Shown here in pieces: positions 1-54,960 of a stretch of 64,000 nucleotides of DNA; within the stretch, counting starts at the first letter, position 1; each line of letters opens with the position of its first letter. A program made the position numbers and the translations under genes. This DNA comes from Calditrichia bacterium (GTDB lineage Bacteria; Calditrichota; Calditrichia; RBG-13-44-9; J075), in NCBI GenBank assembly GCA_028284905.1, contig JANQQU010000022.1, forward strand, positions 124,001 to 188,000, read 5' to 3'. The notes beneath the pieces are model-generated. The model searched no databases, was not told the origin of the DNA, and saw nothing but the letters and a program-made list of their open reading frames with translations.

Positions 1-409
1 CAAATTTGCTGTAGTCCATTCGGTATAGATGATCCCCGGAAAGAATCAGAACATAATCCCCATGGTCCTGAATAAATTGCAGATTTTGCCGAACGGCATC
101 GGCGGTACCTTGATACCAGTCCCGATTGTCCACGGTTTGTTGTGCGGAAAGAATTGTGATAAAATCGCGCGAAAAGATGCTGAACCGGTATGTCAAAAAG
201 ATATGCCGATGCAAAGACTCCGCGCTAAACTGGGTACAGATATAAATTCGTGAATATCCGGAATGCAGGCAATTTGAGATGGGAATATCAATTAAGCGAA
301 ATTTTCCGGCGATCGGCACTGCCGGTTTGGAGCGCTGTTGGGTTAAAGGGTATAACCGGGAGCCTTGTCCGCCGGCCAGAATCATCGTCACTACCTTGGG
401 CTTTGCCAT
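1..409 (-). CDS. glgC: Glucose-1-phosphate adenylyltransferase, 5' part (runs off the window)
   Basis: ADP-glucose pyrophosphorylase makes ADP-glucose from glucose-1-phosphate and ATP for glycogen synthesis. The first 136 codons are present on the minus strand and the gene continues beyond position 1. Visible family signatures are the N-terminal nucleotide loop ([13 protein letters not shown]), the [20 protein letters not shown] stretch, WYQGTADAV near residue 96, and [11 protein letters not shown] near the cut end. The ATG at 407-409 is preceded by a GAGAGGGA ribosome binding site. It is transcribed divergently from the CsgG-like operon. Identification is by motif and is firm; regulation cannot be judged because the rest of the protein is missing. 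Confidence 0.95.
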
Positions 410-735
410 GAGTAATCCCTCTCTTTTGAATGCGAAAAATTGAAAATCCGGAAGTAAAATCTGCAGATATTGCTCTACCCGGAAGGTGTCTCGCTTTGTT
501 TACCGGGCATGCCAAGTTAAAGCTTTTTATTATTTTATACAAATAGTAAAAGTTTCGTTTCGGTGAATAATTCGCAATGGAAAAGAAACTATTCTCCAAT
601 TTAATGATGAGCATTAAGAATAGACCGCGGTCACATTGTAGGGGGCACATGCTCGCTGTCACAGATTTCAAAAAATGAATTATCCATTTTAAGAACGACT
701 AACAGGAAGGTTCACCAATTTAAGGAGGTGTCATC
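410..735. other. Divergent intergenic region, glgC / CsgG-like operon
   Basis: This 326-base AT-rich spacer separates two divergent genes and must carry both promoters. I could not pick a convincing -35/-10 pair on either strand, in contrast to several other spacers here. The right end holds a strong ribosome binding site (AAGGAGGTG at 723-731). No RNA gene or reliable small ORF was seen. Confidence 0.5.
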
Positions 736-1791
736 ATGAAAAATTTCATCGGACATCTTTACAGATTTTGCGACCAGCGTGCGACAGGCGCATTTGCCCT
801 GATGCTGGGAGCCGTATTCGTTTTCAGTATTGGGTTTGCTAATTCTAACGCCCATCAGCTGGATTTGCAAACAGCAATTGTTAGCTATAAATCCGCCGAT
901 TATGATACGGCGATTCAGCTGTTGTCAGCTATTGTCGCGGATGAAAGCGCAGATATTGAGCATCGCAAGGATGCATTGCGATATCTGGGTAGATGCTATA
1001 TGGCCAAGCGCTTAACCGACAAAGCCCGCGATGTAGTCCTGGAATTATTGGAGTTGGAGCCACCAATTGTGGAGTTTGATCCCGATAGCGAATCCCCGGC
1101 CCTAATGAAGGTTTACTACGAAGCCCGTAAGAATATGACCGGCAGCTATCAGGTAGAACGGGCAGATCCTGGTATTAAAACCATGGCAATTATGGATTTT
1201 CAGAACAGTTCAATCGATCAGAAAGAAAAATTCGACCCAATGGAAAAAGGGTTCTCGGATTTGATGATCAACCGCTTGAACGGCTCCACCCAGCTGAAAG
1301 TGGTTGAGCGGGAACGGATCCAGTGGATATTAGATGAGCTGAAAATTCAAAACCAGTTTAATATGAAAGATGCTGTTCGCGCCGGTGAACAGTTAGGGGT
1401 TCATGTCGTATTGTTTGGCAGTTTTATCATTGTCAAAAAGGAGCTTTGGCTCAGTGCCCGATTGGTAAAAGTAGAGAGTAGTGAAATTCTGCTGACCGAG
1501 GAAGTGCGCGGCAAGGTGGATGATTTTTTTACCCTGATCGATGATTTAAGCCGAAAAGTTTCCCGGGCAATCGATGAAGATGTTGAAGTTACAGCAGCAG
1601 AAAAATCTGCCAAACCAAATTCACTGGAAGCGATGATTGCATATTCCGAGGGACTGGCGCTGCTGGAAAAATCCGAGTATGACCTTGCCTACGAAAAATT
1701 TCAGGACGCCCTGAAGTATGATCCCAAGTATACCCGGGCCCGCCAAAAAGCGGAAAGTATCAAATATCTTCTGCTTTATAGCGAAGGTTAG
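736..1791 (+). CDS. CsgG-domain protein flanked by TPR repeats
   Basis: This is a 351-residue exported protein of unknown exact role. An N-terminal hydrophobic segment (about residues 18-38) is followed by TPR-like helices (about 45-110), then a CsgG/curli-assembly-like domain (about 145-280) recognisable from IKTMAIMDFQNSS, a 'LKVVERERIQWILDEL' helix and GVHVVLFGSF. A further TPR-like helix pair ends the protein (about 295-345). CsgG itself is the curli secretion pore, but this domain is widely reused in FCB bacteria in periplasmic or lipoprotein contexts. The start is well set by AAGGAGGTGTCATC-ATG. It is the first of three collinear genes, followed by a paralogue with the same TPR-CsgG-TPR order. 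There is no lipobox, so it is probably periplasmic or inner-membrane anchored. Confidence 0.8.
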   Translation: MKNFIGHLYRFCDQRATGAFALMLGAVFVFSIGFANSNAHQLDLQTAIVSYKSADYDTAIQLLSAIVADESADIEHRKDALRYLGRCYMAKRLTDKARDVVLELLELEPPIVEFDPDSESPALMKVYYEARKNMTGSYQVERADPGIKTMAIMDFQNSSIDQKEKFDPMEKGFSDLMINRLNGSTQLKVVERERIQWILDELKIQNQFNMKDAVRAGEQLGVHVVLFGSFIIVKKELWLSARLVKVESSEILLTEEVRGKVDDFFTLIDDLSRKVSRAIDEDVEVTAAEKSAKPNSLEAMIAYSEGLALLEKSEYDLAYEKFQDALKYDPKYTRARQKAESIKYLLLYSEG

Positions 1792-1832
1792 AGTTAAACT
1801 GCCGCTGTGGCTAAAATCAGAATCTTGAGACA

Positions 1833-3152
1833 ATGAAAGAATATTTGATGAAATCTACTTTATGGCGTTGGGGACTACTGGCCAGCCTTTTACTGGGCTG
1901 GTCCTGTGCTTCAGTTAACTATCAGGCGGATGAATCCAACTTCCGGGAAGAGATCGATCGGCTGGAAGCAAAAGTGCTCGATAATCCCAATGATATGGAA
2001 GCCTGGCGGGATTTAGGAGCAATTTATTTTCAGACGCAGTCTTACAAGAAAGCCCAGAAAGCCCTTTTCAAAGCGGCAAAGCATTTGAAGAACGATCCCA
2101 AGACACTGTTTTTCGTTGGTCTGTCGTTTGAATTTGACGGAGACGAAGTCGCCGCTCTGAAAGTTTATAAGCAATATCAGAAGGTTTCCCGCCTCTCCGG
2201 GTATCGCCGCTTGATGAAAGGGCGTCACGATTGGATGCTGCGGGAAGTTGCCCGGGCACATGCTCGCCTGCTGGTTCAGGATACGCTAAACACCATTTCC
2301 GTTGCACCGGGCGCAGTGGCTGTTTTTCCGATGCTCTACAACGGTAATGATCCACAGTTCTCGTACCTGGGCCGGGGAATGAGTGAGATGCTGCTGATTG
2401 ATCTGGGGAAAATTCCGAATCTTCGCCTGGTAGAACGTATCCGCACCCAAACGCTTTTGAATGAGCTTAAATTAGCGGAACAGCCATTCATCGATCCTTC
2501 AACAGCGCCGCGCCATGGCCGCCTGGTTGGTGCGACAAGAATTGTCGGGGGCATCTTTAATGTTTTCGGTGAATCACAAATGCGCGTTGATATGTCCTAT
2601 TGGGATACCGAAGCGGCCAGCTTCCCACAGGTAACCGATAAAAGTGATGCCCTGGATAATTTTTTCCGGCTGGAAAAAGCCCTGCTGTTCGAGCTTGTCG
2701 GGAAAATGGAAATAGCGCTAACCCCGGAAGAGCGCAACCGTTTGATGCATATACCGACCAGAAACATCCGTGCTTTTATTGAATTTTGTAAAGGATTGAC
2801 CGAAGAAGACGCCGGCAATTTTGATGCTGCGGGTGGATTCTATCAGAGTGCCGTTTCGCTGGATCCCAACTTCATGATGGCGAACGAAGCATTGGAGAGA
2901 AGTGAAGATATACAGGCGAGTAACGGCAGTATCCAGGCGATGTCTCAAAAGGGACTCGCTGTTGATGGCCGGAAGAAAACGGTTCGACAAACTGGCATGG
3001 TCAACAACATGCTGCAAACGATGACGAATAACATCGGCAGTGGATTTGTCGCCGCAGGGGAAGATGGCCGAAAATCCGCAGAGGAATTGGTTCAGTCGAG
3101 CGCCGGGGCTGGTAATCTGCCGGAACCACCGCCGCCACCGCCGCAGCGATAA
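1833..3152 (+). CDS. CsgG-like TPR lipoprotein, paralogue of the preceding gene
   Basis: This 439-residue probable lipoprotein has the signal LLASLLLGWSC, where the Cys would be lipidated although the lipobox is imperfect. TPR repeats lie at about residues 40-115. A CsgG/TolB-N-like domain follows at about 150-300 (VAVFPMLYNG, 'LRLVERIRTQTLLNEL', GATRIVGGIFNVFG), then another TPR unit at about 315-355. The C-terminus is low complexity and ends in a run of prolines. The domain order copies the upstream gene, so the pair probably arose by duplication. An ATG at 1848 is an alternative start; neither has a strong ribosome binding site. Function is unknown; periplasmic assembly or secretion scaffolding is inference. 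Confidence 0.8.
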   Translation: MKEYLMKSTLWRWGLLASLLLGWSCASVNYQADESNFREEIDRLEAKVLDNPNDMEAWRDLGAIYFQTQSYKKAQKALFKAAKHLKNDPKTLFFVGLSFEFDGDEVAALKVYKQYQKVSRLSGYRRLMKGRHDWMLREVARAHARLLVQDTLNTISVAPGAVAVFPMLYNGNDPQFSYLGRGMSEMLLIDLGKIPNLRLVERIRTQTLLNELKLAEQPFIDPSTAPRHGRLVGATRIVGGIFNVFGESQMRVDMSYWDTEAASFPQVTDKSDALDNFFRLEKALLFELVGKMEIALTPEERNRLMHIPTRNIRAFIEFCKGLTEEDAGNFDAAGGFYQSAVSLDPNFMMANEALERSEDIQASNGSIQAMSQKGLAVDGRKKTVRQTGMVNNMLQTMTNNIGSGFVAAGEDGRKSAEELVQSSAGAGNLPEPPPPPPQR

Positions 3153-6213: not shown

Positions 6214-7005
6214 TTACTTCCAGATAACCATGTAAATTAGGCCGGCCAGGGAGGCATACGAGACACCTAGGGTGATCTCAGAGAGGCGATCGTATTTCTG
6301 GGTGCTATCCCAATACTGATCGCGGAGCCCGGCATCTCCGGTTTGGCTATACTTATCGAAATTGCTATCTGCCTGATTCTTGAAATAAAAAGAGGCCCAA
6401 TGGCTGGCAACGGTCAACGCAAGCAGTGAAAATTTGCTCTTGATATGCCGCTTCGGAATCACCCCGAGCAGTTGGGGCTTTTCACGGTCTTCGATAAAGC
6501 TATCATCCTTTTCCAAATGGGCGAGAATCGATTTGTTCTCATTCAGCTGAAATTCATAATCCTTAAATCCATGCTTGCTCAGGCGAAAAAATTTCCCACG
6601 ATTCGGCTCAAAAGGAATATAGAGCGGGGTCATGCCCAGGCGCGTAGTGTCGGCGTATAATTCCGCGCCGAAAGGAGTAGAATTCACATAAATCGGACTG
6701 CTGAATTTTGTATGGATCTTGGAATCCTGATTGGGGTGTATAATCACTTCGTAGCGTTTCTCCTCAAGATTCCAGATGCCATTATTCGGAGGATAAACCT
6801 GAATCTGGTGCAGACCGGCGGAGAGAGGGAGAAGTTCCAGGGGTGTTTTACCGACGAGAACGGAATCGACCTTTACCCAGCTACCGGAAGGGGCAGAAGT
6901 AACGCTTAAGGTGCCCTGCTCGCCAGATGCATCCTGCGCAGAAAGATTCGCAGCCAAAAGTAAGGATATTGCTAGTAATAACAGCTTTGCAGAAAGGTGT
7001 TTCAT
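6214..7005 (-). CDS. PEGA-domain periplasmic protein
   Basis: This 263-residue protein has a signal peptide (about residues 1-23, cleaved after LSA). Two consecutive PEGA-type beta domains follow: GTLSVTSAPSGSWVKVDSVL with VGKTPLELLPLSAG, then SPIYVNSTPFGAELYADTTR with LGMTPLYIPF. PEGA domains occur in surface or periplasmic proteins and are thought to bind other envelope components. The C-terminus holds two hydrophobic stretches (about 190-210 and 243-262) that could anchor it. Its ATG overlaps the stop of the upstream BamB-like gene (ATGA), so the two are translationally coupled. The exact function is unknown. Confidence 0.8.
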   Translation of the reverse strand: MKHLSAKLLLLAISLLLAANLSAQDASGEQGTLSVTSAPSGSWVKVDSVLVGKTPLELLPLSAGLHQIQVYPPNNGIWNLEEKRYEVIIHPNQDSKIHTKFSSPIYVNSTPFGAELYADTTRLGMTPLYIPFEPNRGKFFRLSKHGFKDYEFQLNENKSILAHLEKDDSFIEDREKPQLLGVIPKRHIKSKFSLLALTVASHWASFYFKNQADSNFDKYSQTGDAGLRDQYWDSTQKYDRLSEITLGVSYASLAGLIYMVIWK

Positions 7006-8189
7006 TCTTCGTCTCTCCGTGCCTGTAATATTTTCTCGTTTGCCAATGCATATAATTTGTCATTGGCTGTCTGTACAATCAGATAATCCCGATAAATGAT
7101 CGGCGAGGATTTGATCGGGCGCTTGAATTGCTGCTTAAAAATCATTTCTCCGGAAAAGCGGTTGAGCACATATAAATGGCGGTCCCAGGAGGAAACATAG
7201 AGATAATCCGGAGAGGGTAGGGGAACGGTATTGACGATTCCCTTTGTTTTAAACTTCCAGATAATGTCACCGGTTTCCTTGTGCATGGCAATCACTTCAT
7301 GGGCATTGTTGCCGATATATAACACATTGTTGTAGAGAGCCGGACTGCTGAAAATAGCACCGGCAAATGCTTTCTCCCAAATGGTCTCGCCGGTATACAA
7401 ACTGATGGCATGCATTTTACCACTAACGGTGCCAATGTATACCAGGAGATCATCCAGAACCGGATGGGAAAAAATGCCCCCTTCCAGCTGAACTTTCCAT
7501 TTCTCTTCACCGGTTTCGGAATCCAGGGCATACAGCCAGCCATGATTATCACCGAAAACCAGAAAACCACTTTGCTGTGCCGGTGAACTCTGAACAGCCG
7601 CACTGGTTTTGTATTCCCAGATTTTTTCGCCGGTTTCAATATCCGCGCCAAAAACCCGGTTACGGTTGGTGCCGAAATAAATACGTTCTCCATCAACCAA
7701 CGGCGTGGTGCTGATGTGTGGATAGGATTCATCCCACAATCGTTTCGCGCGTTGCAGGTTAAAGCCCATCAGGGTTTTTTCGCCCATTTCCAGTCCGGCA
7801 TACATCACCAGGTTCTCATGGATGGTTGGCGAGGCAGCGAGGGCATGCCCCAGTTTGCCGCTGGCAATCTTTTCCCCGGTATTGTAGTCCACCATGTACA
7901 AAATGCCACTTTCCGTCGGTGCAATTATGTAATCACCCAATGCGAGCGGATGGTCTGTTACGACTGATTTTACACCTCTTTTCCAAACCACTTCCAGGGG
8001 AGGAACGATATTGTGATTGGCATAATGTTGATGCTGTGCATTACGCCCCAGGGTCAACCATTCTTTGTCCGGATCCAGCGCTTCGCTTTCCGGTAATTTT
8101 AGCTTGACCAATCCTCCACAGCCAAGGAGAAGGGAAAAGAAGATCATAAAACTGTATTGATACCAATGCTGCTTAAAATGCTTGATCAT
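7002..8189 (-). CDS. BamB-like PQQ-propeller lipoprotein
   Basis: This 395-residue lipoprotein has the lipobox LLLGC (Cys near residue 24), followed by a beta-propeller of PQQ/YWTD-type blades. Repeats of the form 'ALDSETGEEKWKV', 'AISLYTGETIWEKAF' and 'AMHKETGDIIWKF' recur about every 40 residues. BamB, with this architecture, is the scaffold lipoprotein of the outer-membrane barrel assembly machine. Here the gene sits 18 bp after a protease-propeller-Omp85 fusion and overlaps the PEGA gene, so a role alongside that barrel is plausible. The family is broad; BamB is the nearest recognised analogue, not a proven orthologue. Confidence 0.8.
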   Translation of the reverse strand: MIKHFKQHWYQYSFMIFFSLLLGCGGLVKLKLPESEALDPDKEWLTLGRNAQHQHYANHNIVPPLEVVWKRGVKSVVTDHPLALGDYIIAPTESGILYMVDYNTGEKIASGKLGHALAASPTIHENLVMYAGLEMGEKTLMGFNLQRAKRLWDESYPHISTTPLVDGERIYFGTNRNRVFGADIETGEKIWEYKTSAAVQSSPAQQSGFLVFGDNHGWLYALDSETGEEKWKVQLEGGIFSHPVLDDLLVYIGTVSGKMHAISLYTGETIWEKAFAGAIFSSPALYNNVLYIGNNAHEVIAMHKETGDIIWKFKTKGIVNTVPLPSPDYLYVSSWDRHLYVLNRFSGEMIFKQQFKRPIKSSPIIYRDYLIVQTANDKLYALANEKILQARRDEE

Positions 8190-8207: not shown

Positions 8208-11069
8208 TTAAAAGTCCCAGCCGAAAAAGAATTGCGAAAACCAGTTGTCACTAAAATTCCTGGTTTTAAAGTCATACCGTTTACCTATATCCATGCGTAG
8301 CACCAGGAATCCACCGAGGTTAAAGCGAAAACCGTATCCGACGCTGCCGAGCAGGCTGTCAAAGTCGTTGCCGTTCCAGGCATTACCGGCATCAGCAAAT
8401 AATGCCCCGCGGATGCCCGGGAAAACCATGGAGAGAAAGGGGAACTTGATGCCCAGGTAATCTATAAACGGGAAGCGAAGTTCCTGGGAGATCAGGGCAA
8501 TCTTTTCGCCGCGAATCGACCAGCGGCGATATCCGCGTAAATCCCAGCTGCCGCCAAGATAATACCAACGGGTTTCCTTGCCATCATTCAACAAGGTCAT
8601 CGCACGAACGGCATAAGTGACCTTGCTGTTCAGACGGAAATAATGACGGTAATCAAAGAGAAAAGTCCAGTAATTAACATTGGAGAAACGAATGTCGTAA
8701 GTATTGCTCAAGGAAATGTTGTAGCGGTTTCCTTCCACCGGTCCGGTATAGGACCAAATTGAGTTGTCATGCACCAAAGAGACTGAATTCGAGCTCAGCA
8801 AAGCGAATCTTCGGTTCGAACCGGTAATGTCTTTATCCGAGTAACTTAGGTTGGAGCTGAATTCAAATCTTTTAAAATGTGAGAAGGGATAGCTGATTGT
8901 AAAGAAACCGCCGAAACGATCTTCATAGAAAAAATCGTCCTTAAAATTGAAGAATCGGCCAGAGTAACGAAAGATACCATAGGCATGATTGGTGCGTTTA
9001 CCGAGGGAAAGTTTCGTTACCGCAAAGTTCATGCTTTTCAGGAATTCCGAACGGCTTTGGGCATTATTGTAAAGCAGCACATAATATTGATCATTGCCCA
9101 GTAAATCGGTAAAAGCCATGAGGGCTCCACCATTAGTGCCCCAGAACGGATCCTGGTTTACCTGGGTCTGGGCAATATCCAGATTGTAGTTCTTTTTATA
9201 CTCTAACTTGGTAATCACCTTTTGACCGGTTAATCGCCCCGGTTTCCAGTGAGTATGGGTCAATGGCATTGCTAACTGTGGTAAGGTTTCAGCGGAATCC
9301 AGTTTGGTGACGACATCTTCAAAATGGCGAATCTGGAAGCGGTTTCCTTCATAAACAGTAAAGAGCAAACCGTCATCGGCCGTCCATTCCGGATCAAAAG
9401 CAGCATTGGCGAATTGGGAAATCCGTTTAACAGGAATATTCTGGTAACTGCTTTCCGTCCAACTGGTGATTTCGGAAACATCAGCAGCAAAGATATTCAG
9501 TGAAAGATCTTCATCACGATCAGAAGTAAATGCAATGACGCTGCCATCCGGAGACCAAACCGGGGTATGATCCTGCGTCTCACCGGCAGTGACGTAATGG
9601 ATTAAGTTAGTGTTGAGGTCATATACGAAAATATTAAAGCACCATTGGTCGCCATATATACTGCGATCAGAAGAAAAGGCGATCTTACTGCCATCGGGGG
9701 AGAAGCTAGGCGCATTATCCGCATACAAATCATCGGTTAAGCGCATGACCTTTTCATTCTTCAATTCGAGGATGTATAAATCCCGGTTGCCACTAAAGCT
9801 CAATCCGGAAAACACAATTCTCTGCCCATCTGGCGAAAATGATGGAGAACCAATGCCAACGATGTTATTCCATTGAAATTTGCGAATAATTTCTTCAGTT
9901 TCGACATCGTAAATATAGAGCGCATCATTCTCCCCGCTTTTCGAAGAGAAAACCAGCTTGCCTTCTTTCGAAACGTCTAATTTACTGGAGAAGATATGAA
10001 AAGCTTCAAAATCTGAACTGCGGCCGCCTTTCACCAGAGTTTTCAATTTTTCCGACTTCTTTTTACCTGTGCGTTGCTTCATGTCGGTCATATAAATATT
10101 AGAGTAGCCAGTGCGGTTACCGGCAAAAATAATTTTGTCACCTTCTTCGCTGCGATAGAACGCCGGCTTAAAGTTATAGCCTTCCTGGACGATTGTTTGG
10201 GCGACCATCCGGGAAAAATCCTGTTCTCCCAGTTTAGGATAATATCTTTTCTTCAGATAATACATCCATTCCTGGTCAAACTGTTCGTAGGTGATGCCAA
10301 GAACATCTTCGAATACTTCCGAGAACTTGCCATATTTCCAGATATTTTCCATGAACAGGAGGATTTTATCTTCGCCATATTTCTCGGCGATATAGCTGAG
10401 AATTGCCTGCCCTTCTTTATACATCATGTAGGTGCCATGAATCCGATAAATCTGGGAAAGCGGCACGACATAGTTGTGCAGCACGGCATCCTTCATGACC
10501 ATTTCCGCCTGGGCATCCCACGTGCTGGACCAGTATTCCGCCAGCCCTTCCACAAACCAAAGTGGGGGATAGGTACCATCAAAGCGACCATGCTCCTTAT
10601 TCTCGAAATAAACTTTCGAGTGCATAAATACGTGCACTAGTTCGTGGCGAATCACTTTGCGGAAATTATTGATATCCCCGTTACTGGGAATAACCACCCG
10701 GCCTTTCAGGAATTCAAAGAAGCCTCCGACCCCTTCGGGAATATGTCCCGGGGTGATATTGGTTTGCTGAAAGTGTAGGTGGGAACTATAGAAAATCAGG
10801 GGAATTTTCCGGGTGACGGTAAAGTTGAATTTACTTTCCAGGTAAGTATAGGACTCTTCGGCGTAGAAGGCGCCCTGCTCTGCTAACTCTTCCATCTCCG
10901 GATAGAAATAAATATCGAAATGCTCGGTTTTCAGGATCTGCCATTTGAAGTCAGTATACTGAACCTTATTGCGGCCGAAATAAAACCACTGAGCAGATAG
11001 CGAAGACGTAAGGGTTAAGAAGATGATGAAAATGGAGACAATTAAGGGAGTCCTGGATACACCTAACAT
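8208..11069 (-). CDS. Fusion: HExxH metalloprotease - TolB-like propeller - Omp85-type barrel
   Basis: This 953-residue envelope protein has a signal peptide (1-26). A gluzincin-like peptidase domain (about 40-300) contains HELVH at 142-146 and a downstream WFVEGLAEYW, whose Glu would be the third zinc ligand. TolB/WD40-type blades follow (about 310-590), each with SPDG motifs such as SFSPDGQRIVFSG and SFSPDGSKIAFSS. The C-terminal barrel (about 620-953) carries the Omp85 loop motif WDLRGY, FADAGNAW and a terminal Phe. No POTRA domains are present; the protease and propeller take their place. The start is fixed at 11069 by GGAAGG and by a promoter whose -35 box lies at 11136-11141. Function is unknown; processing or insertion of outer-membrane proteins is inference. 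Confidence 0.85.
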   Translation of the reverse strand: MLGVSRTPLIVSIFIIFLTLTSSLSAQWFYFGRNKVQYTDFKWQILKTEHFDIYFYPEMEELAEQGAFYAEESYTYLESKFNFTVTRKIPLIFYSSHLHFQQTNITPGHIPEGVGGFFEFLKGRVVIPSNGDINNFRKVIRHELVHVFMHSKVYFENKEHGRFDGTYPPLWFVEGLAEYWSSTWDAQAEMVMKDAVLHNYVVPLSQIYRIHGTYMMYKEGQAILSYIAEKYGEDKILLFMENIWKYGKFSEVFEDVLGITYEQFDQEWMYYLKKRYYPKLGEQDFSRMVAQTIVQEGYNFKPAFYRSEEGDKIIFAGNRTGYSNIYMTDMKQRTGKKKSEKLKTLVKGGRSSDFEAFHIFSSKLDVSKEGKLVFSSKSGENDALYIYDVETEEIIRKFQWNNIVGIGSPSFSPDGQRIVFSGLSFSGNRDLYILELKNEKVMRLTDDLYADNAPSFSPDGSKIAFSSDRSIYGDQWCFNIFVYDLNTNLIHYVTAGETQDHTPVWSPDGSVIAFTSDRDEDLSLNIFAADVSEITSWTESSYQNIPVKRISQFANAAFDPEWTADDGLLFTVYEGNRFQIRHFEDVVTKLDSAETLPQLAMPLTHTHWKPGRLTGQKVITKLEYKKNYNLDIAQTQVNQDPFWGTNGGALMAFTDLLGNDQYYVLLYNNAQSRSEFLKSMNFAVTKLSLGKRTNHAYGIFRYSGRFFNFKDDFFYEDRFGGFFTISYPFSHFKRFEFSSNLSYSDKDITGSNRRFALLSSNSVSLVHDNSIWSYTGPVEGNRYNISLSNTYDIRFSNVNYWTFLFDYRHYFRLNSKVTYAVRAMTLLNDGKETRWYYLGGSWDLRGYRRWSIRGEKIALISQELRFPFIDYLGIKFPFLSMVFPGIRGALFADAGNAWNGNDFDSLLGSVGYGFRFNLGGFLVLRMDIGKRYDFKTRNFSDNWFSQFFFGWDF

Positions 11070-11388
11070 ATTTAAGCCTTCCGTATATGATGAAGATGAA
11101 TCTATGTTATACAAATATATAGCTTTCTTTTCTAATGTCAATTACCCGTTTGAGGGAATTTTTCGGTATATTTATCGATTTTTTACCTCAGCGTGGTACT
11201 CTTTCCTAAGTTGGCCGGTAATCCAAAAAGTGGGATTAAGGCGATGCGACGGGTTACTTAAATGTCTGCAAAAGAAACGATTTTTCCGTAAGGGGCATCA
11301 CATAATCTAAAAACCACGCAGGCAATTAGTTGAACAATAAATTATCTGGTTGTGCGCTGGCTAAATTTATGACGATCAAAAAAACAAA
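11070..11388. other. Spacer with the promoter of the protease-barrel operon
   Basis: This 319-base spacer holds the promoter at 11114-11141 and a leader of about 38 nt before the ATG. Next to the RluA-type gene it has a T-run on the minus strand (about 11375-11381) but no clear stem. Nothing else was recognised. Confidence 0.5.
11114..11141 (-). promoter_or_regulatory. Promoter of the protease-barrel / BamB-like / PEGA operon
   Basis: On the minus strand: TTGACA (11136-11141), a 16-bp spacer, TATATT (11114-11119). Transcription should begin near 11107. This site overlaps an in-frame TTG that could be mistaken for the start codon. Confidence 0.75.
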
Positions 11389-49034: not shown

Positions 49035-52000
49035 ATGCGGAAAAAATTAAGAATCATTCTTGGCACGTTTTTCCTAATTGGGATAGGCCTTCTCCTGATC
49101 CTGATTATGCTCTATGCGTATTCCCCGGTGCTGGATAAAACCTTGATCAATACCATCAATCGCCTGGCCGGCGAGGATGTCGCAGTAAATATCGAGGCTA
49201 TATCCGGTAATCTTATTGGCACTGTTCGTCTCGATGGCGTAACAGCTACAACTGCAGATCACCAAATCTCCTGCGATCGAATAGAGCTTGATTATTCCCT
49301 CCTGGATATTATCGGCCGAAGATTTATTGTTGATCAGGTAGTATTGATCAAACCGGATATTTCCCTCGATTTTTCTGCAACAGATAGTTTGGCAGATACC
49401 ACTGAAGTGCCATTGGATTCGCTGCTTGCCGGGCTGAATCCGGAAACCTGGCCATTGGTGCGAATCGGAAATTTTATCGTTGAAGACGGGGCAATTGCCA
49501 TCAAAAGGGCTGCTGGTAAAGATACCCTTTCCAATTTACAGATGGAGTTGTCTGGAGAAGTTTCCGATGAGAAAATCGCCTTGCAGCCGCAGTATATACG
49601 GGGGAGCTGGGTTAATCGGAATATTGATATCGAAAATCTCACCTTTAAACTTTTGGGTAACAAGACAAGAGTTACACTTAATCAGATCACCGCAGAGATT
49701 CCCGATGTTTACTTTAACGGTAAAGGCGAAGTAGAATTCCAGCCGGGCTTCCGCGTGCTTTTCTTTCCGGACTCCACCAGGTTTGATTTAAATATTCTCA
49801 AAAAATTCCTGCCGGATTTGCCTTTTCATGAGGGATACCTTTCTGTTGCCGGTCACTTCATCAACAAACCGGGAAAACTCAGTGACTTCCAGGGACAAAT
49901 CACTGTCTCCGGTCAGTTGGATAGTATCCAGGTTCGCAATTTGTCGACGGAATATCATAAAAAAGCGGAGAGTGACGCGCTTTTTTTGGACAATCTCTCA
50001 GCGCAAACCAATTTTGGGAATGTTGATGGACAACTTTTGATCTCGCAAGAAGACAGCAGCGAATGTCACATTCATACCGAGAATGTAAACTTGCGAAAGC
50101 TGGGGCTTGTATCTGAAGATATCATCCTGAATGGCAGAGTGGATTACCGTTTCCTGGATTGGGACTTAAGCAAAATGTCCGGTGAAGGCCAGGTGAATTT
50201 AAGAGATTTTCGGGCCGGAGATATAGCCATCGATGCGATTCGCCTCAATGTGTTGACCAATGCAGGCAATTGGCATATTCTCGATCCCTCGCAGGTGATT
50301 GTTGGCGAAGAAGCGGTACTGACGGTTGCCGGCAGCATATATGATAACCAGACAATCGACATTCGCCTGTTCTCCGAGGATAGTAATGTGGACACATTAC
50401 TGAGTCGTTTTGCAGTCCCGGATATCGGAGGCAGTAATGCGTTGATAGATTTGCATCTGACCGGTAAGCTCGACGATCCTTCCATTGAAGGGGAAATAGA
50501 TATTCCCCAGCTGACTTACGGCGACAATGTTGAGTTGTATGGTATCTATGGCGTTGGCAATATTAAAGATGTTTTGAATTTAAACAATACGCGAAACGGC
50601 GATTTTAACCTTGAAGTGGGCACCTGCTACCTGGGCGATATTTTTTTGAAAGCGGCGAATATTAATCTGCTTTTCAGCCGGAACCGGATTGTTGCCAATC
50701 CATTTATGTTTTATAGTGAAGAAGATTCTATTAATGGCCGGGCATACATTAGTTTGCAGGATACCGCAACGATTATTTCGATTGCCAATCTGGAACTTTT
50801 TCTGGAAAACTACTTTGTTCAAAATGACAAGGTTATAGAAACCCGCTTGGCTCGGGATACGCTGTTTGTCGATCGCTTCAATATGGTTTCCGCAGATGAA
50901 GGCAGAATGAGCAGCCGCGGCTACATTGCCTTAAATGGCAATAGTTCACTCTATACTGAAATCGACAACATTTCCATTGCGCCAATAAACAGCCGGCTTT
51001 ATTGGGATTATGAATTGCAGGGAATACTGGACGAAACCACCATTGATATTTTTGGAGATATTTCTCAACCGGATATGGATGTGCAGGTGTTTTTTAAGGA
51101 TTTCTCTGTGGACGGGTATCCGGTCGGGGAAATATTTTCCAACTTTTCCATCCTTGATGGCAATCTGGGGATCAATACATTTAACCTGGATAGCGGCAGC
51201 GATTCCTACTTCTCTTTGAATGGCGACATCGGCTTTCAGCTTTTTTCCGGTGACAGCAGCAAAACTACCTTTGCAGATACGCCCCTGGGGCTGAACATTG
51301 TGCTGGGCAATTTCCGTTTGAAAGATTATGATTTTCTCTATGAGTCAAAATATCCGATTGATGGGCAGCTGACCGGGCGCCTGGATCTCACCGGAACAAT
51401 CCGCGATCCGGAAGGAGAACTGGTGTTGTCCGGAGAAAATGTTGCCATTGGCGAAAGTAATTTCCCGGAAATTCTGCTTGAGAGCCGTTTGCAGTCCGAT
51501 AAAATTATATTGGACAAAGGAATGATCAATATAGAGAATTCCGTGGTCAATATAAGTGGTGAAAAAACAATTGATTATGACCCCGCTGATTTTGACAGTG
51601 CTTTCGTCGAAAAGCTATTCCGGGATAAACAATTCCAATTGTCCCTGAATATCCGGGAAGATAGTCTGAACTTCTTAAATACCTTAAATGCCGAACTGGA
51701 ATCGTTGACCGGTGATATCGTTTTGACTGCGGAACTGGAAGGGGATTATGATGATCCACAGATTACCGCTGGAAATATCCGGGTAAAAGATGGTATTCTC
51801 AATCTGGCTCGTTATGAAAACACCATCGAAGAGATTGAGTTGGTGACCAGTTTGCAGGGCACTCGTCTGGTAATTGAAAAGTGCACCGGCCGTTCCTCAA
51901 AAACTATTCGCCGGCGAAATTTTTTCCAGCGTTGGTTTGATAGCGTAAGCAGCTTATTTGTCAAGCAGCAGGTAACCGGTGATATCGCCGTTGAAGGATT

Positions 52001-53048
52001 TATCGATCTGGCTTCGGTCATCCGTCCCCGTTATCAACTGAGCATTGACTTACACAATAGCTATTTCAACTACTTCGTTGAAAATACAGAAGTGGCGCTA
52101 AGTACAACCGATTTAGAGGTCACCGGGCAGGACACCATCCAAATTAGTGGCGATGTGCAGGTAAATAGGGGAGATGTAGAGCTGGATTTTGTTGAATCCG
52201 AGAAAAACCTCTTACTAATAACCAATGTCCGGGAAACAGCGCCGTATCTGCGCTACAACATAAATGTAGAAATTCTTCCCAATTTTACCGTTCAAAACCG
52301 CGATTTGCTAAACAGCTTTAATATGCAGCTTTCCGGTAACCTGAAGATCTTGCAGGAACCGAAGGGGGCTTTGGAAATTTATGGTGTGTTGGAAACCGAT
52401 GGAAAATATTACATCCAGGGAATAGACTTTGAAATCCAACGTGGTAAAATTGATTTCGTGAATCCGAAAGAGATACCAGAACTAAATCTCGTCGCATTAA
52501 AGGAACGGAATGATCATATTTTTAATCTGAATGTCCGGGGAAAAATTGATGCGCCGGAAAAAGAAATTGTCGTGCAGGACAAAGATGGCAATCGCACGCA
52601 TCATACCGATGTAAAAGATCAGATGGCGCTGCTTTTGTTTGGCACAACGTTCGATCAACTCAGTGGCGCAGATGTCGTTTCTAGCGGTGGGGAAGCAGTG
52701 ACCCAAATTCTGATTTCCCAAATCGAAAGAGAAGCGATCACGTTTACCGGGCTGGACCGAATTAGCCTGGACTCTCCGGACAGTTTTTTTAAAAATCGCC
52801 TGAATCAGCCCTCGACACTTTCGCTGGGAAAATACCTGACTGCCAATTTATACCTGGAATATAAATCGCGCTTATCTTCTTCAGGGTTAGGGGGCATTCC
52901 GGCGCCGAATCTTTCCTGGGAAGCCGGTAATCAGATTTATTTGCAATATCGTTTAAACCGCAACTGGTTTTTTTCGACATATTATGAAAATACACAAGAA
53001 GGGAATGGTAAAGTAAAGTTGGACATTAGCTGGCAATTGGGTTTTTAA
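49035..53048 (+). CDS. tamB: Translocation and assembly protein TamB
   Basis: This 1337-residue AsmA/DUF490-family protein is anchored by one helix (about 7-29) in the inner membrane. The periplasmic beta-rich groove is thought to guide lipids or outer-membrane proteins. The C-terminal domain is characteristic: DQMALLLFGTTFDQLSGAD, a Gln/Ile-rich helix, SLGKYLTANLYLEYKSRLSS and a final KLDISWQLGF. The length matches TamB. It ends 1 bp before an Omp85 gene, the usual tamB-tamA arrangement in reversed order. It was unlikely to be split or frameshifted; one continuous frame covers the whole family length. Confidence 0.93.
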   Translation: MRKKLRIILGTFFLIGIGLLLILIMLYAYSPVLDKTLINTINRLAGEDVAVNIEAISGNLIGTVRLDGVTATTADHQISCDRIELDYSLLDIIGRRFIVDQVVLIKPDISLDFSATDSLADTTEVPLDSLLAGLNPETWPLVRIGNFIVEDGAIAIKRAAGKDTLSNLQMELSGEVSDEKIALQPQYIRGSWVNRNIDIENLTFKLLGNKTRVTLNQITAEIPDVYFNGKGEVEFQPGFRVLFFPDSTRFDLNILKKFLPDLPFHEGYLSVAGHFINKPGKLSDFQGQITVSGQLDSIQVRNLSTEYHKKAESDALFLDNLSAQTNFGNVDGQLLISQEDSSECHIHTENVNLRKLGLVSEDIILNGRVDYRFLDWDLSKMSGEGQVNLRDFRAGDIAIDAIRLNVLTNAGNWHILDPSQVIVGEEAVLTVAGSIYDNQTIDIRLFSEDSNVDTLLSRFAVPDIGGSNALIDLHLTGKLDDPSIEGEIDIPQLTYGDNVELYGIYGVGNIKDVLNLNNTRNGDFNLEVGTCYLGDIFLKAANINLLFSRNRIVANPFMFYSEEDSINGRAYISLQDTATIISIANLELFLENYFVQNDKVIETRLARDTLFVDRFNMVSADEGRMSSRGYIALNGNSSLYTEIDNISIAPINSRLYWDYELQGILDETTIDIFGDISQPDMDVQVFFKDFSVDGYPVGEIFSNFSILDGNLGINTFNLDSGSDSYFSLNGDIGFQLFSGDSSKTTFADTPLGLNIVLGNFRLKDYDFLYESKYPIDGQLTGRLDLTGTIRDPEGELVLSGENVAIGESNFPEILLESRLQSDKIILDKGMINIENSVVNISGEKTIDYDPADFDSAFVEKLFRDKQFQLSLNIREDSLNFLNTLNAELESLTGDIVLTAELEGDYDDPQITAGNIRVKDGILNLARYENTIEEIELVTSLQGTRLVIEKCTGRSSKTIRRRNFFQRWFDSVSSLFVKQQVTGDIAVEGFIDLASVIRPRYQLSIDLHNSYFNYFVENTEVALSTTDLEVTGQDTIQISGDVQVNRGDVELDFVESEKNLLLITNVRETAPYLRYNINVEILPNFTVQNRDLLNSFNMQLSGNLKILQEPKGALEIYGVLETDGKYYIQGIDFEIQRGKIDFVNPKEIPELNLVALKERNDHIFNLNVRGKIDAPEKEIVVQDKDGNRTHHTDVKDQMALLLFGTTFDQLSGADVVSSGGEAVTQILISQIEREAITFTGLDRISLDSPDSFFKNRLNQPSTLSLGKYLTANLYLEYKSRLSSSGLGGIPAPNLSWEAGNQIYLQYRLNRNWFFSTYYENTQEGNGKVKLDISWQLGF

Positions 53049-53049
53049 A

Positions 53050-54960
53050 ATGCGTAATCTTATCCTCCTGATCATACTGGCTTTTTCCCTGCCGCTAATT
53101 TCAGATACTGAATTGCGAGTGAAAGAAGTCGTATTTAATGGCAATCAACAGTTTACCGATGAAATCCTGAAGACGGTCGTTAAGGTGAAAAAGAAAGACG
53201 CTTTTAACGCCCGGGCTTTAAAAATTGACCAGGTATTGTTGACAAATTTTTATGTGCTGAATGGATATCGAGATGTATATGTTGCCAGCGATTATGAGAA
53301 ACGCGGTAAGGATATTACCGTTGCTTATGATATTCGTGAAGGTAAAAGATTTTATCTGAAAAACCTCACCATTTCCGGCAATGAAAAATTTGCTTACAAT
53401 CATCTGCGGCGGGAAATTAAAATCCCCTTCGGCAGTCCATTCAATCCTGCACTTGTGGAAGCCGGCTTGAATCAAATCGAACGATTTTATCAGGACGCCG
53501 GAAAACCATACGTATTAGTAAAACCCCGGGAATCAATTGAAGAAGATAGTCTCATTACGCTGGATATTGAAATCGAGGAAGGTAAGACGGTTTATGTCCG
53601 CCAGATACATTATGAAGGACGGACGTTGGTTAAGGCTTTTCTTATCCGGAGAGAACTGGCGATTAAAAAAGGAGATACTTTTTCGCAGTCGCTGATTGAA
53701 ACTTCCCAAAAGAACATATATAGCACCGGTCTTTTCAAATTTGTGGACTATCAGGTGAATCCGATTGGTGATGATGAAACCCAGGTTGCCCTGGTTTGGA
53801 AAGTGGTGGAAAAGAAAGCACTTTGGGTGGGGCTGCGGTTTGGAGTTGGTTATGAAGATCGCACAACAAGTGGCAATGTGACAACTTTCGATTTTACTGC
53901 GGAAACCGGTCATCGTAATATTGCCGGAACGGCAAGGTCGATTGCATTGCGTGGTGTTCAGTCCCTTTACTTTGGCAGCACACAATCGGATGACAGTCAT
54001 AAAGCTCGTTATCCGAAAACGGAGTTTAGCTTCACCTATGTGGAGCCATGGGTGTTAAATACCCGGACACCAGGCATTATTCGGGTCGCCTATTCCCAGG
54101 AAAGTGAACCGGTTGCGACGGTGCCGATCTCCCTGTTTTCGGTTACCGGAGACTTGAGTCATCAGTATGACCGGTACTGGTCCTACGCCGGCGGGTTGTC
54201 TTTTGAACAAGTTGATATTGATACTGATGACATCGATATTCTCGCCCAATCTACCGGTACATTGAACCAGTTTTCCCAGGGGAACGATAAGATTATAGCG
54301 CTACGATTTGATCCGGTAAAAGACAAGCGGGATAATGTGTTGATTACCCAACGGGGCTATCTTTCGGAATTTCGTAATAAAATAGCCTACACCCAAAGCC
54401 AGCCGGTAATCGATGGTACGATTAGTGATACTACCGTTACCAATTATTTTTACAAGGTGATTTTACAATGGAGCCGCTATCAGGGATTCCGCTGGAACAA
54501 TCGCTGGACATTAGCGACCCGCTTGCGAGGTGGGGCCATTTTTGACTTTCTTAGCGGAAAGGAGATCTGGGAAATTCCGACGAAAGAGCGTTTCTTCCTC
54601 GGTGGCGCCTCAACGATTCGTGGATATGGCGAGCAGATGATCGGTGAGGTGGTGGCCTATCAAACCGATGATGATCGTATCATCAATTTGCCGGTTGGGG
54701 GGCGATATGTGCTGCTTGGGAATATGGAATTACGCGTGCCGTTATTCTGGTTGTTTTACGGTACTGCATTTGTCGACGTGGGAAATATTTGGCAAAATAC
54801 TGAGGAGATCAAGGCGTTTTCCCTGAAGGCAAGTAGTGGCGCGGGACTGGCAGTAATCACCCCATTTGGCCCGATCCGCTTCGACTATGGCTTAAAATGG
54901 TTTCCGGAAAATGATGAGAGTGCCGGCGATTTCCACATCGGCATTTCCTTCGCTTTTTAA
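53050..54960 (+). CDS. tamA: Omp85-family outer-membrane assembly protein (TamA/BamA-like)
   Basis: This 636-residue outer-membrane protein has a signal peptide (about 1-18). Three POTRA-like repeats follow (about 20-97, 98-176, 177-257), with the pattern 'VKEVVFNGNQQFTDEIL', 'LKNLTISGNEKFAY' and 'VRQIHYEGRTLVKAFLI'. The 16-strand barrel carries the L6 motif TIRGYGEQ near 522, a 'FVDVGNIW' strand, RFDYGLKWF and a terminal Phe. Three POTRAs, as opposed to the five of most BamA, and adjacency to tamB favour TamA, but BamA acting with TamB is also possible. Confidence 0.9.
   Translation: MRNLILLIILAFSLPLISDTELRVKEVVFNGNQQFTDEILKTVVKVKKKDAFNARALKIDQVLLTNFYVLNGYRDVYVASDYEKRGKDITVAYDIREGKRFYLKNLTISGNEKFAYNHLRREIKIPFGSPFNPALVEAGLNQIERFYQDAGKPYVLVKPRESIEEDSLITLDIEIEEGKTVYVRQIHYEGRTLVKAFLIRRELAIKKGDTFSQSLIETSQKNIYSTGLFKFVDYQVNPIGDDETQVALVWKVVEKKALWVGLRFGVGYEDRTTSGNVTTFDFTAETGHRNIAGTARSIALRGVQSLYFGSTQSDDSHKARYPKTEFSFTYVEPWVLNTRTPGIIRVAYSQESEPVATVPISLFSVTGDLSHQYDRYWSYAGGLSFEQVDIDTDDIDILAQSTGTLNQFSQGNDKIIALRFDPVKDKRDNVLITQRGYLSEFRNKIAYTQSQPVIDGTISDTTVTNYFYKVILQWSRYQGFRWNNRWTLATRLRGGAIFDFLSGKEIWEIPTKERFFLGGASTIRGYGEQMIGEVVAYQTDDDRIINLPVGGRYVLLGNMELRVPLFWLFYGTAFVDVGNIWQNTEEIKAFSLKASSGAGLAVITPFGPIRFDYGLKWFPENDESAGDFHIGISFAF

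Follow-up and report, generated by a model that had tools for sequence, protein, structure and literature searches.

The gene at the centre of this report occupies positions 8208..11069 on the minus strand of the window, by which we mean the whole stretch of 64,000 nucleotides that was analysed, and encodes a protein of 953 amino acids for which full-length homologues are known. The source is a Calditrichota-type assembly of 8.55 Mb in 93 contigs. Only the minus strand carries the 953-residue frame, which starts at an ATG at position 11069; the opposite (plus) strand of 8208-11069 is riddled with stops. A likely promoter identified by its match to the consensus, TTGACA-16-TATATT (11141-11114, minus strand; 11 of 12 consensus positions), lies about 45 bases 5' of this ATG. 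Because this -35/-10 pair is strong and an alternative TTG at 11141 itself lies inside the -35 box, the ATG is the preferred start, and a longer product of 977 amino acids initiated at the TTG was ruled out. Residues ~1-26 (10992..11069, minus strand; ..LTLTSSLSAQ) are predicted, by reading the sequence, to form a Sec signal peptide. Eighteen bases 3' of the gene, on the same strand, lies the gene for a BamB-like PQQ-propeller lipoprotein (7002..8189, minus strand; 395 aa, lipobox LLGC), which overlaps by 4 bases a gene for a PEGA-domain envelope protein (6214..7005, minus strand; 263 aa, PEGA 58.8 bits). The initial annotation had proposed that the 953-residue frame joins a metalloprotease, a propeller and an outer-membrane barrel in one protein devoid of POTRA domains, and both the single frame and all three parts of this architecture proved right.

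The N-terminal part is a gluzincin-type peptidase domain (residues ~27-290; 10200..10991, minus strand), which is helical in the structural model and gives a curated family match in a Pfam scan, to Peptidase_MA_2 at 36.0 bits (cut-off 32.4), as the initial annotation had suggested a Peptidase_MA profile might; the same family also matches 41 of 43 homologues. A profile of this region reached the catalytic domains of M9 collagenases in the PDB (E 2.6e-4), a distant match that aligns both the HExxH and the EG(L/I)AEY segment. The HELVH motif (residues 142-146; 10632..10646, minus strand) is predicted to supply two of the zinc ligands together with the catalytic Glu, while EGLAEY (residues 174-179; 10533..10550, minus strand) supplies the presumed third ligand, Glu174, which sits 28 residues past HELVH. 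Both elements had been picked out in the initial annotation, and His142, Glu143, His146, Trp171, Glu174 and Gly175 are invariant in all 63 aligned family members, every one of which carries the HExxH plus conserved downstream Glu typical of clan MA gluzincins. The spacing between HExxH and the third ligand is similar wherever a simple pattern found that ligand (24-30 residues, and 56 in one diverged member). A HExxH motif unable to bind metal had been named as fatal to the original proposal, and the invariance of the predicted zinc ligands argues against it. On the evidence of these alignments the active site of the peptidase is intact; a decayed or lost peptidase was ruled out by the invariant residues, and an inactive one seems implausible, since a dead enzyme would hardly retain an invariant site. 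Some relatives also encode shorter peptidases related to this domain, of ~316-325 aa and apparently without propeller and barrel (for example G017:C1:1448907-1449566), which possibly represent an ancestral or soluble form.

The peptidase is followed by a TolB-like β-propeller (residues ~299-584; 9318..10175, minus strand). Four PD40 repeats were detected in the Pfam scan (E 2.8e-25), in agreement with the propeller initially read from the sequence, and the model of this region has ~six blades by count with pLDDT mostly >70. TolB is its closest match in both fold and profile, being the top hit of a Foldseek search with the propeller model (E 3e-12) and finding agreement in TolB profiles. TolB itself is a soluble, free-standing protein that has an N-terminal domain of its own but neither a peptidase nor a barrel. 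The full-length model, with a mean pLDDT of 60, is of good confidence for the peptidase and the propeller only.

The C-terminal part (residues ~628-953; 8211..9188, minus strand) is an Omp85 barrel. In isolation it passes the Bac_surface_Ag profile PF01103, as had been anticipated, at 41.4 bits (cut-off 24; 41.1 bits in a genome scan), and 23 of 40 homologous barrels also match. Unlike the isolated barrel, the full-length protein gave no Omp85 match in the Pfam scan, even at E 10, which we attribute to HMMER's filters. A family profile of the barrel aligned in the PDB with BamA of Fusobacterium (9ccg, E 5.7e-14) over its entire barrel, and with other BamA and TamA proteins too. The structure predictions used four relatives, so that the barrel model is weak (mean pLDDT only 59.6 for the barrel alone); it contains 16 strands by count, and the RGY loop joins strands 11 and 12. 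In Foldseek it retrieved BamA best, then Sam50, TamA and FhaC, all with query TM-scores <0.5. A non-Omp85 fold at the C terminus, the other finding that would have told against the initial annotation, is therefore not what is modelled. The Omp85 superfamily has two lid-lock motifs: loop L6 bears RG(Y/F) at its tip, and strand 13 bears (F/G)xDxG, which takes the form FxDxG in BamA and TamA and GxDxG in FhaC (PMC4490367). Both are present here: RGY at the tip of L6 (residues 845-847, within LRGY 844-847; 8529..8537, minus strand), with R845 in 61 of 63 members, and FADAG on strand 13 (residues 891-895; 8385..8399, minus strand), with F891 in 62 and D893 in all 63. The RGY loop and the terminal Phe (Phe953) noticed at the outset are thus both there. 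The barrel belongs to the Omp85 superfamily, with both lid-lock motifs in the BamA/TamA form. While BamA and TamA share this form, they have N-terminal POTRA domains, in whose place the peptidase and the propeller stand here. A search for POTRA (PF07244) found none in the protein, as had been claimed, and found POTRA domains elsewhere in the same genome. A POTRA hidden between propeller and barrel was also considered, but there is no profile match in this stretch and it spans just ~45 residues in the models.

The nature of the barrel bears on whether the protein might serve secretion or surface display, the barrel being either a translocon whose peptidase matures crossing proteins, in the manner of two-partner secretion, or a device that displays the peptidase outside as a digestive enzyme. 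We regard this as improbable. Part of the barrel does match the ShlB/FhaC model, although weakly and under the cut-off (18.4 bits), and the peptidase is distantly related to the secreted M9 collagenases. However, a secretion barrel of the FhaC type is disfavoured by the presence of FxDxG, the insertase type, instead of GxDxG, and there is no large exoprotein partner beside the gene within the window. Furthermore, the enzyme domain of PlpD, which likewise precedes an Omp85 barrel, is periplasmic (PMC11116518), and conservation across the whole class points to housekeeping more readily than to digestion.

This conservation is extensive. Of 385 genomes, 157 contain a match to the family with an E-value of 1e-40 or lower, most of these genomes lying outside the Calditrichia-type class, and among the matches listed most cover the 947 positions of the profile within one open frame. 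The full-length architecture in 157 genomes led us to reject a chance reading frame or an assembly fusion, and the survey of recurrence that the initial annotation had called for thus shows that the fusion is no one-off. Because it recurs mostly outside the class, the peptidase-propeller-barrel architecture is an ancient one, as opposed to a chance fusion. Within the class, the peptidase domain of the family is found in 39 of 40 genomes, including all 23 of the nearly complete ones, which makes this a core gene of the class; the present genome has four family copies. The nearest named relatives are from Calditrichota bins (69-73% identity), followed by a Zixiibacteriota bin (43%), and no relative was found in the viral contigs searched.

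Comparison with known Omp85 proteins identifies the WD40-Omp85 subfamily as the closest named kind. This subfamily is described as having an N-terminal propeller and an Omp85 barrel without POTRA, with a propeller nearest to TolB, and is likened by the authors to a BamA-BamB fusion (Heinz & Lithgow 2014, PMC4104836). The protein studied here has the same order of propeller then barrel, also without POTRA, so that the assignment would be one by described architecture. What differs is that the available part of that paper makes no mention of a peptidase before the propeller, nor of a separate adjoining BamB-like gene (PMC4104836). A second subfamily needs consideration because of its name. 'Metallo' Omp85 proteins were named Omp85-metalloprotease by the same authors and are defined by PF00149 (PMC4104836). 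A Pfam scan gave no PF00149 match in our protein, which places it outside that definition. PF00149 is the calcineurin-like phosphoesterase family and no protease, and since the label rests on it, 'Omp85-metalloprotease' may be a misnomer. The WD40 and metalloprotease Omp85 subfamilies were still not well characterised in 2024 (Hanson et al. 2024, PMC11116518), and the open-licence literature that was searched yielded no account of a peptidase-propeller-Omp85 protein. The design is widespread, deeply conserved and, it appears, unstudied. What appears to be new, judging from the sequences, is the presence of an intact zinc-peptidase domain in a propeller-Omp85 protein, one lineage of which is tied to a BamB-like gene.

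The genome encodes conventional assembly factors against which this protein has to be placed. A genome scan found 14 Omp85 places, one of them in a 787-aa protein (C18) that shows five POTRA places and is taken as canonical BamA. The window itself contains a TAM pair, consisting of a TamB-like gene (49035-53048, plus strand; 1337 aa) directly followed by a TamA-like gene (53050-54960, plus strand; 636 aa, three POTRA plus Omp85). Since a separate POTRA-bearing BamA and a TamA/TamB pair are present, the peptidase-propeller-barrel protein is not the main insertase, and it is an addition to the normal assembly system and no replacement for it. The presence of both systems also weighs against a second insertase, in which the propeller and the BamB-like lipoprotein would feed clients in place of POTRA and the peptidase would act as built-in proofreading. 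We consider such an insertase very improbable, even though it would make use of the insertase-type lid-lock, the BamB-like partner gene and the TolB-like propeller, because a POTRA-free, propeller-fed mode of Omp85 insertion would be deduced from motifs. Two further Omp85 proteins of the genome drew attention by their N-terminal parts. One (G000:C69, L150; frame 341-3082, minus strand) has 914 aa and a C-terminal Omp85 barrel, and its ~600 N-terminal residues match no Pfam family. In the other (G000:C51:27500-31000, L152; frame 837-2390), the Omp85 barrel lacks POTRA and follows an unusual, short N-terminal stretch in which a bactofilin-like match is weak and a DUF5686 match partial.

The same genome also encodes two patatin-Omp85 proteins of the PlpD type (G000:C67, L151, and G000:C40, L153, the latter with a POTRA). 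PlpD is a dimer-forming protein whose N-terminal enzyme domain is periplasmic and precedes an Omp85 barrel (PMC11116518). Patatin-Omp85 (type Vd) proteins thus resemble ours in having an enzyme domain ahead of an Omp85 barrel, although in PlpD the enzyme is of another class, a patatin lipase, and is accompanied by one POTRA and no propeller; the Pfam scan accordingly gave no match to the patatin domain (PF01734) in the peptidase-propeller-Omp85 protein. This precedent shows that Omp85 barrels need not be insertases, and it raises a credible, if on balance unlikely, alternative in which the barrel merely anchors or dimerises the protein. The peptidase would then cut unrelated substrates of the periplasm or envelope (exported or peptidoglycan-linked proteins, lipoproteins), and barrel assembly would not involve the protein. 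Two patatin-Omp85 proteins in one genome indicate that enzyme-Omp85 fusions are common here, and the paralogues of our protein do without a BamB-like neighbour. However, the lid-lock is near-invariant in our family, whereas a simple pattern search found neither of the usual motifs in the two patatin-Omp85 barrels, and an assembly-factor-like gene is linked to the family in the orthologous clade.

This linkage is another finding of the analysis. The product of the 7002-8189 gene is a lipoprotein with a PQQ-type propeller (PQQ_2, 128 bits; LLGC lipobox by pattern), features that it shares with BamB, itself a partner of the protein-insertion machinery. It is more diverged than BamB, scoring 233.3 bits against the BamB equivalog TIGR03300, under the 285.2 cut-off, and many PQQ-propeller proteins are something other than BamB. 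The pair formed by the barrel gene and the BamB-like gene recurs in Calditrichota, Zixiibacteriota and several further families outside the class, and the PEGA gene also follows in most Calditrichota and in many pair-bearing relatives. A BamB-like gene lies downstream on the same strand, directly or nearly so, in 24 of 31 members of the orthologous clade versus none of 32 other family members, a contrast inflated by near-copies; the recurrence across separate families is independent of these. One of the seven clade members without the pair (L009) sits at a contig edge. On a tree of the 63 members the pair is limited to one well-supported clade, with 3 changes compared to ~19 when labels were shuffled. 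A simple pattern picked up a lipobox in the majority of BamB-like genes, the rest escaping it in part through a mechanical choice of start sites. By these gene-order comparisons a conserved operon, new here, links the orthologous clade to a BamB-like gene. That link is not needed for the basic function of the protein, as the paralogous lineages keep the active site without such a neighbour. In third-clade paralogues (L042, L075, L079), genes that look HtrA/DegP-like by eye occur within ~5 kb, a loose linkage.

Taken together, these results lead us to propose, with moderate confidence, that the protein is an outer-membrane-tethered, periplasm-facing zinc peptidase involved in the maturation or quality control of barrel proteins, a proposal in which topology, activity, substrates and cooperation with BAM are all inferred. 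In Omp85 proteins the domains N-terminal to the barrel are expected to be periplasmic, and the inner surface of the outer membrane is where POTRA domains normally lie. The Omp85 barrel would hold both the TolB-like propeller and the peptidase there, a placement on the periplasmic side that we favour by analogy with PlpD. Docking of clients or partners would fall to the propeller, probably aided by the BamB-like lipoprotein from the same operon, and the peptidase would clip or remove maturing or stalled client outer-membrane or envelope proteins. A precedent is offered by BepA, an E. coli zinc peptidase that acts on clients at BAM (PMC8423444). The analogy is a functional one: BepA is a periplasmic M48 enzyme that combines a HExxH + Glu zinc site with a docking domain at BAM, but it is soluble, has TPR instead of a propeller, lacks a barrel and belongs to another peptidase family by profile. 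With this precedent, the barrel, the docking propeller and the BamB-like partner, client processing or removal would fit best. The barrel may still help handle clients, given that it retains the insertase-type lid-lock, which together with the adjoining BamB-like gene favours involvement in the assembly or surveillance of outer-membrane proteins. Several points speak against the proposal. The BamB-like neighbour scores under the equivalog cut-off, the paralogues have no such neighbour, and PlpD, likewise an enzyme with an Omp85 barrel, is not known to act as an insertase. Of the combined insertion and quality-control machine envisaged in the initial annotation, then, the architecture and the absence of POTRA stand, while the machine role is a plausible inference only.

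A more ambitious version, which we consider rather unlikely, is that these proteins represent an unrecognised and widespread class of machine for outer-membrane protein assembly or surveillance. In such a machine, a zinc peptidase and a TolB-like propeller would replace POTRA on an insertase-type barrel equipped with its own BamB-like lipoprotein, and the same molecule would fold a client and destroy a failed one. Should the role of tethered peptidase proposed above be correct, outer-membrane quality control in many phyla would rest on a protease within a BamA-type barrel, and not on DegP/BepA-like soluble proteases alone. The predicted intact zinc-peptidase site and the link to a BamB-like gene take a subfamily listed in 2014 from 'function unknown' to specific tests.
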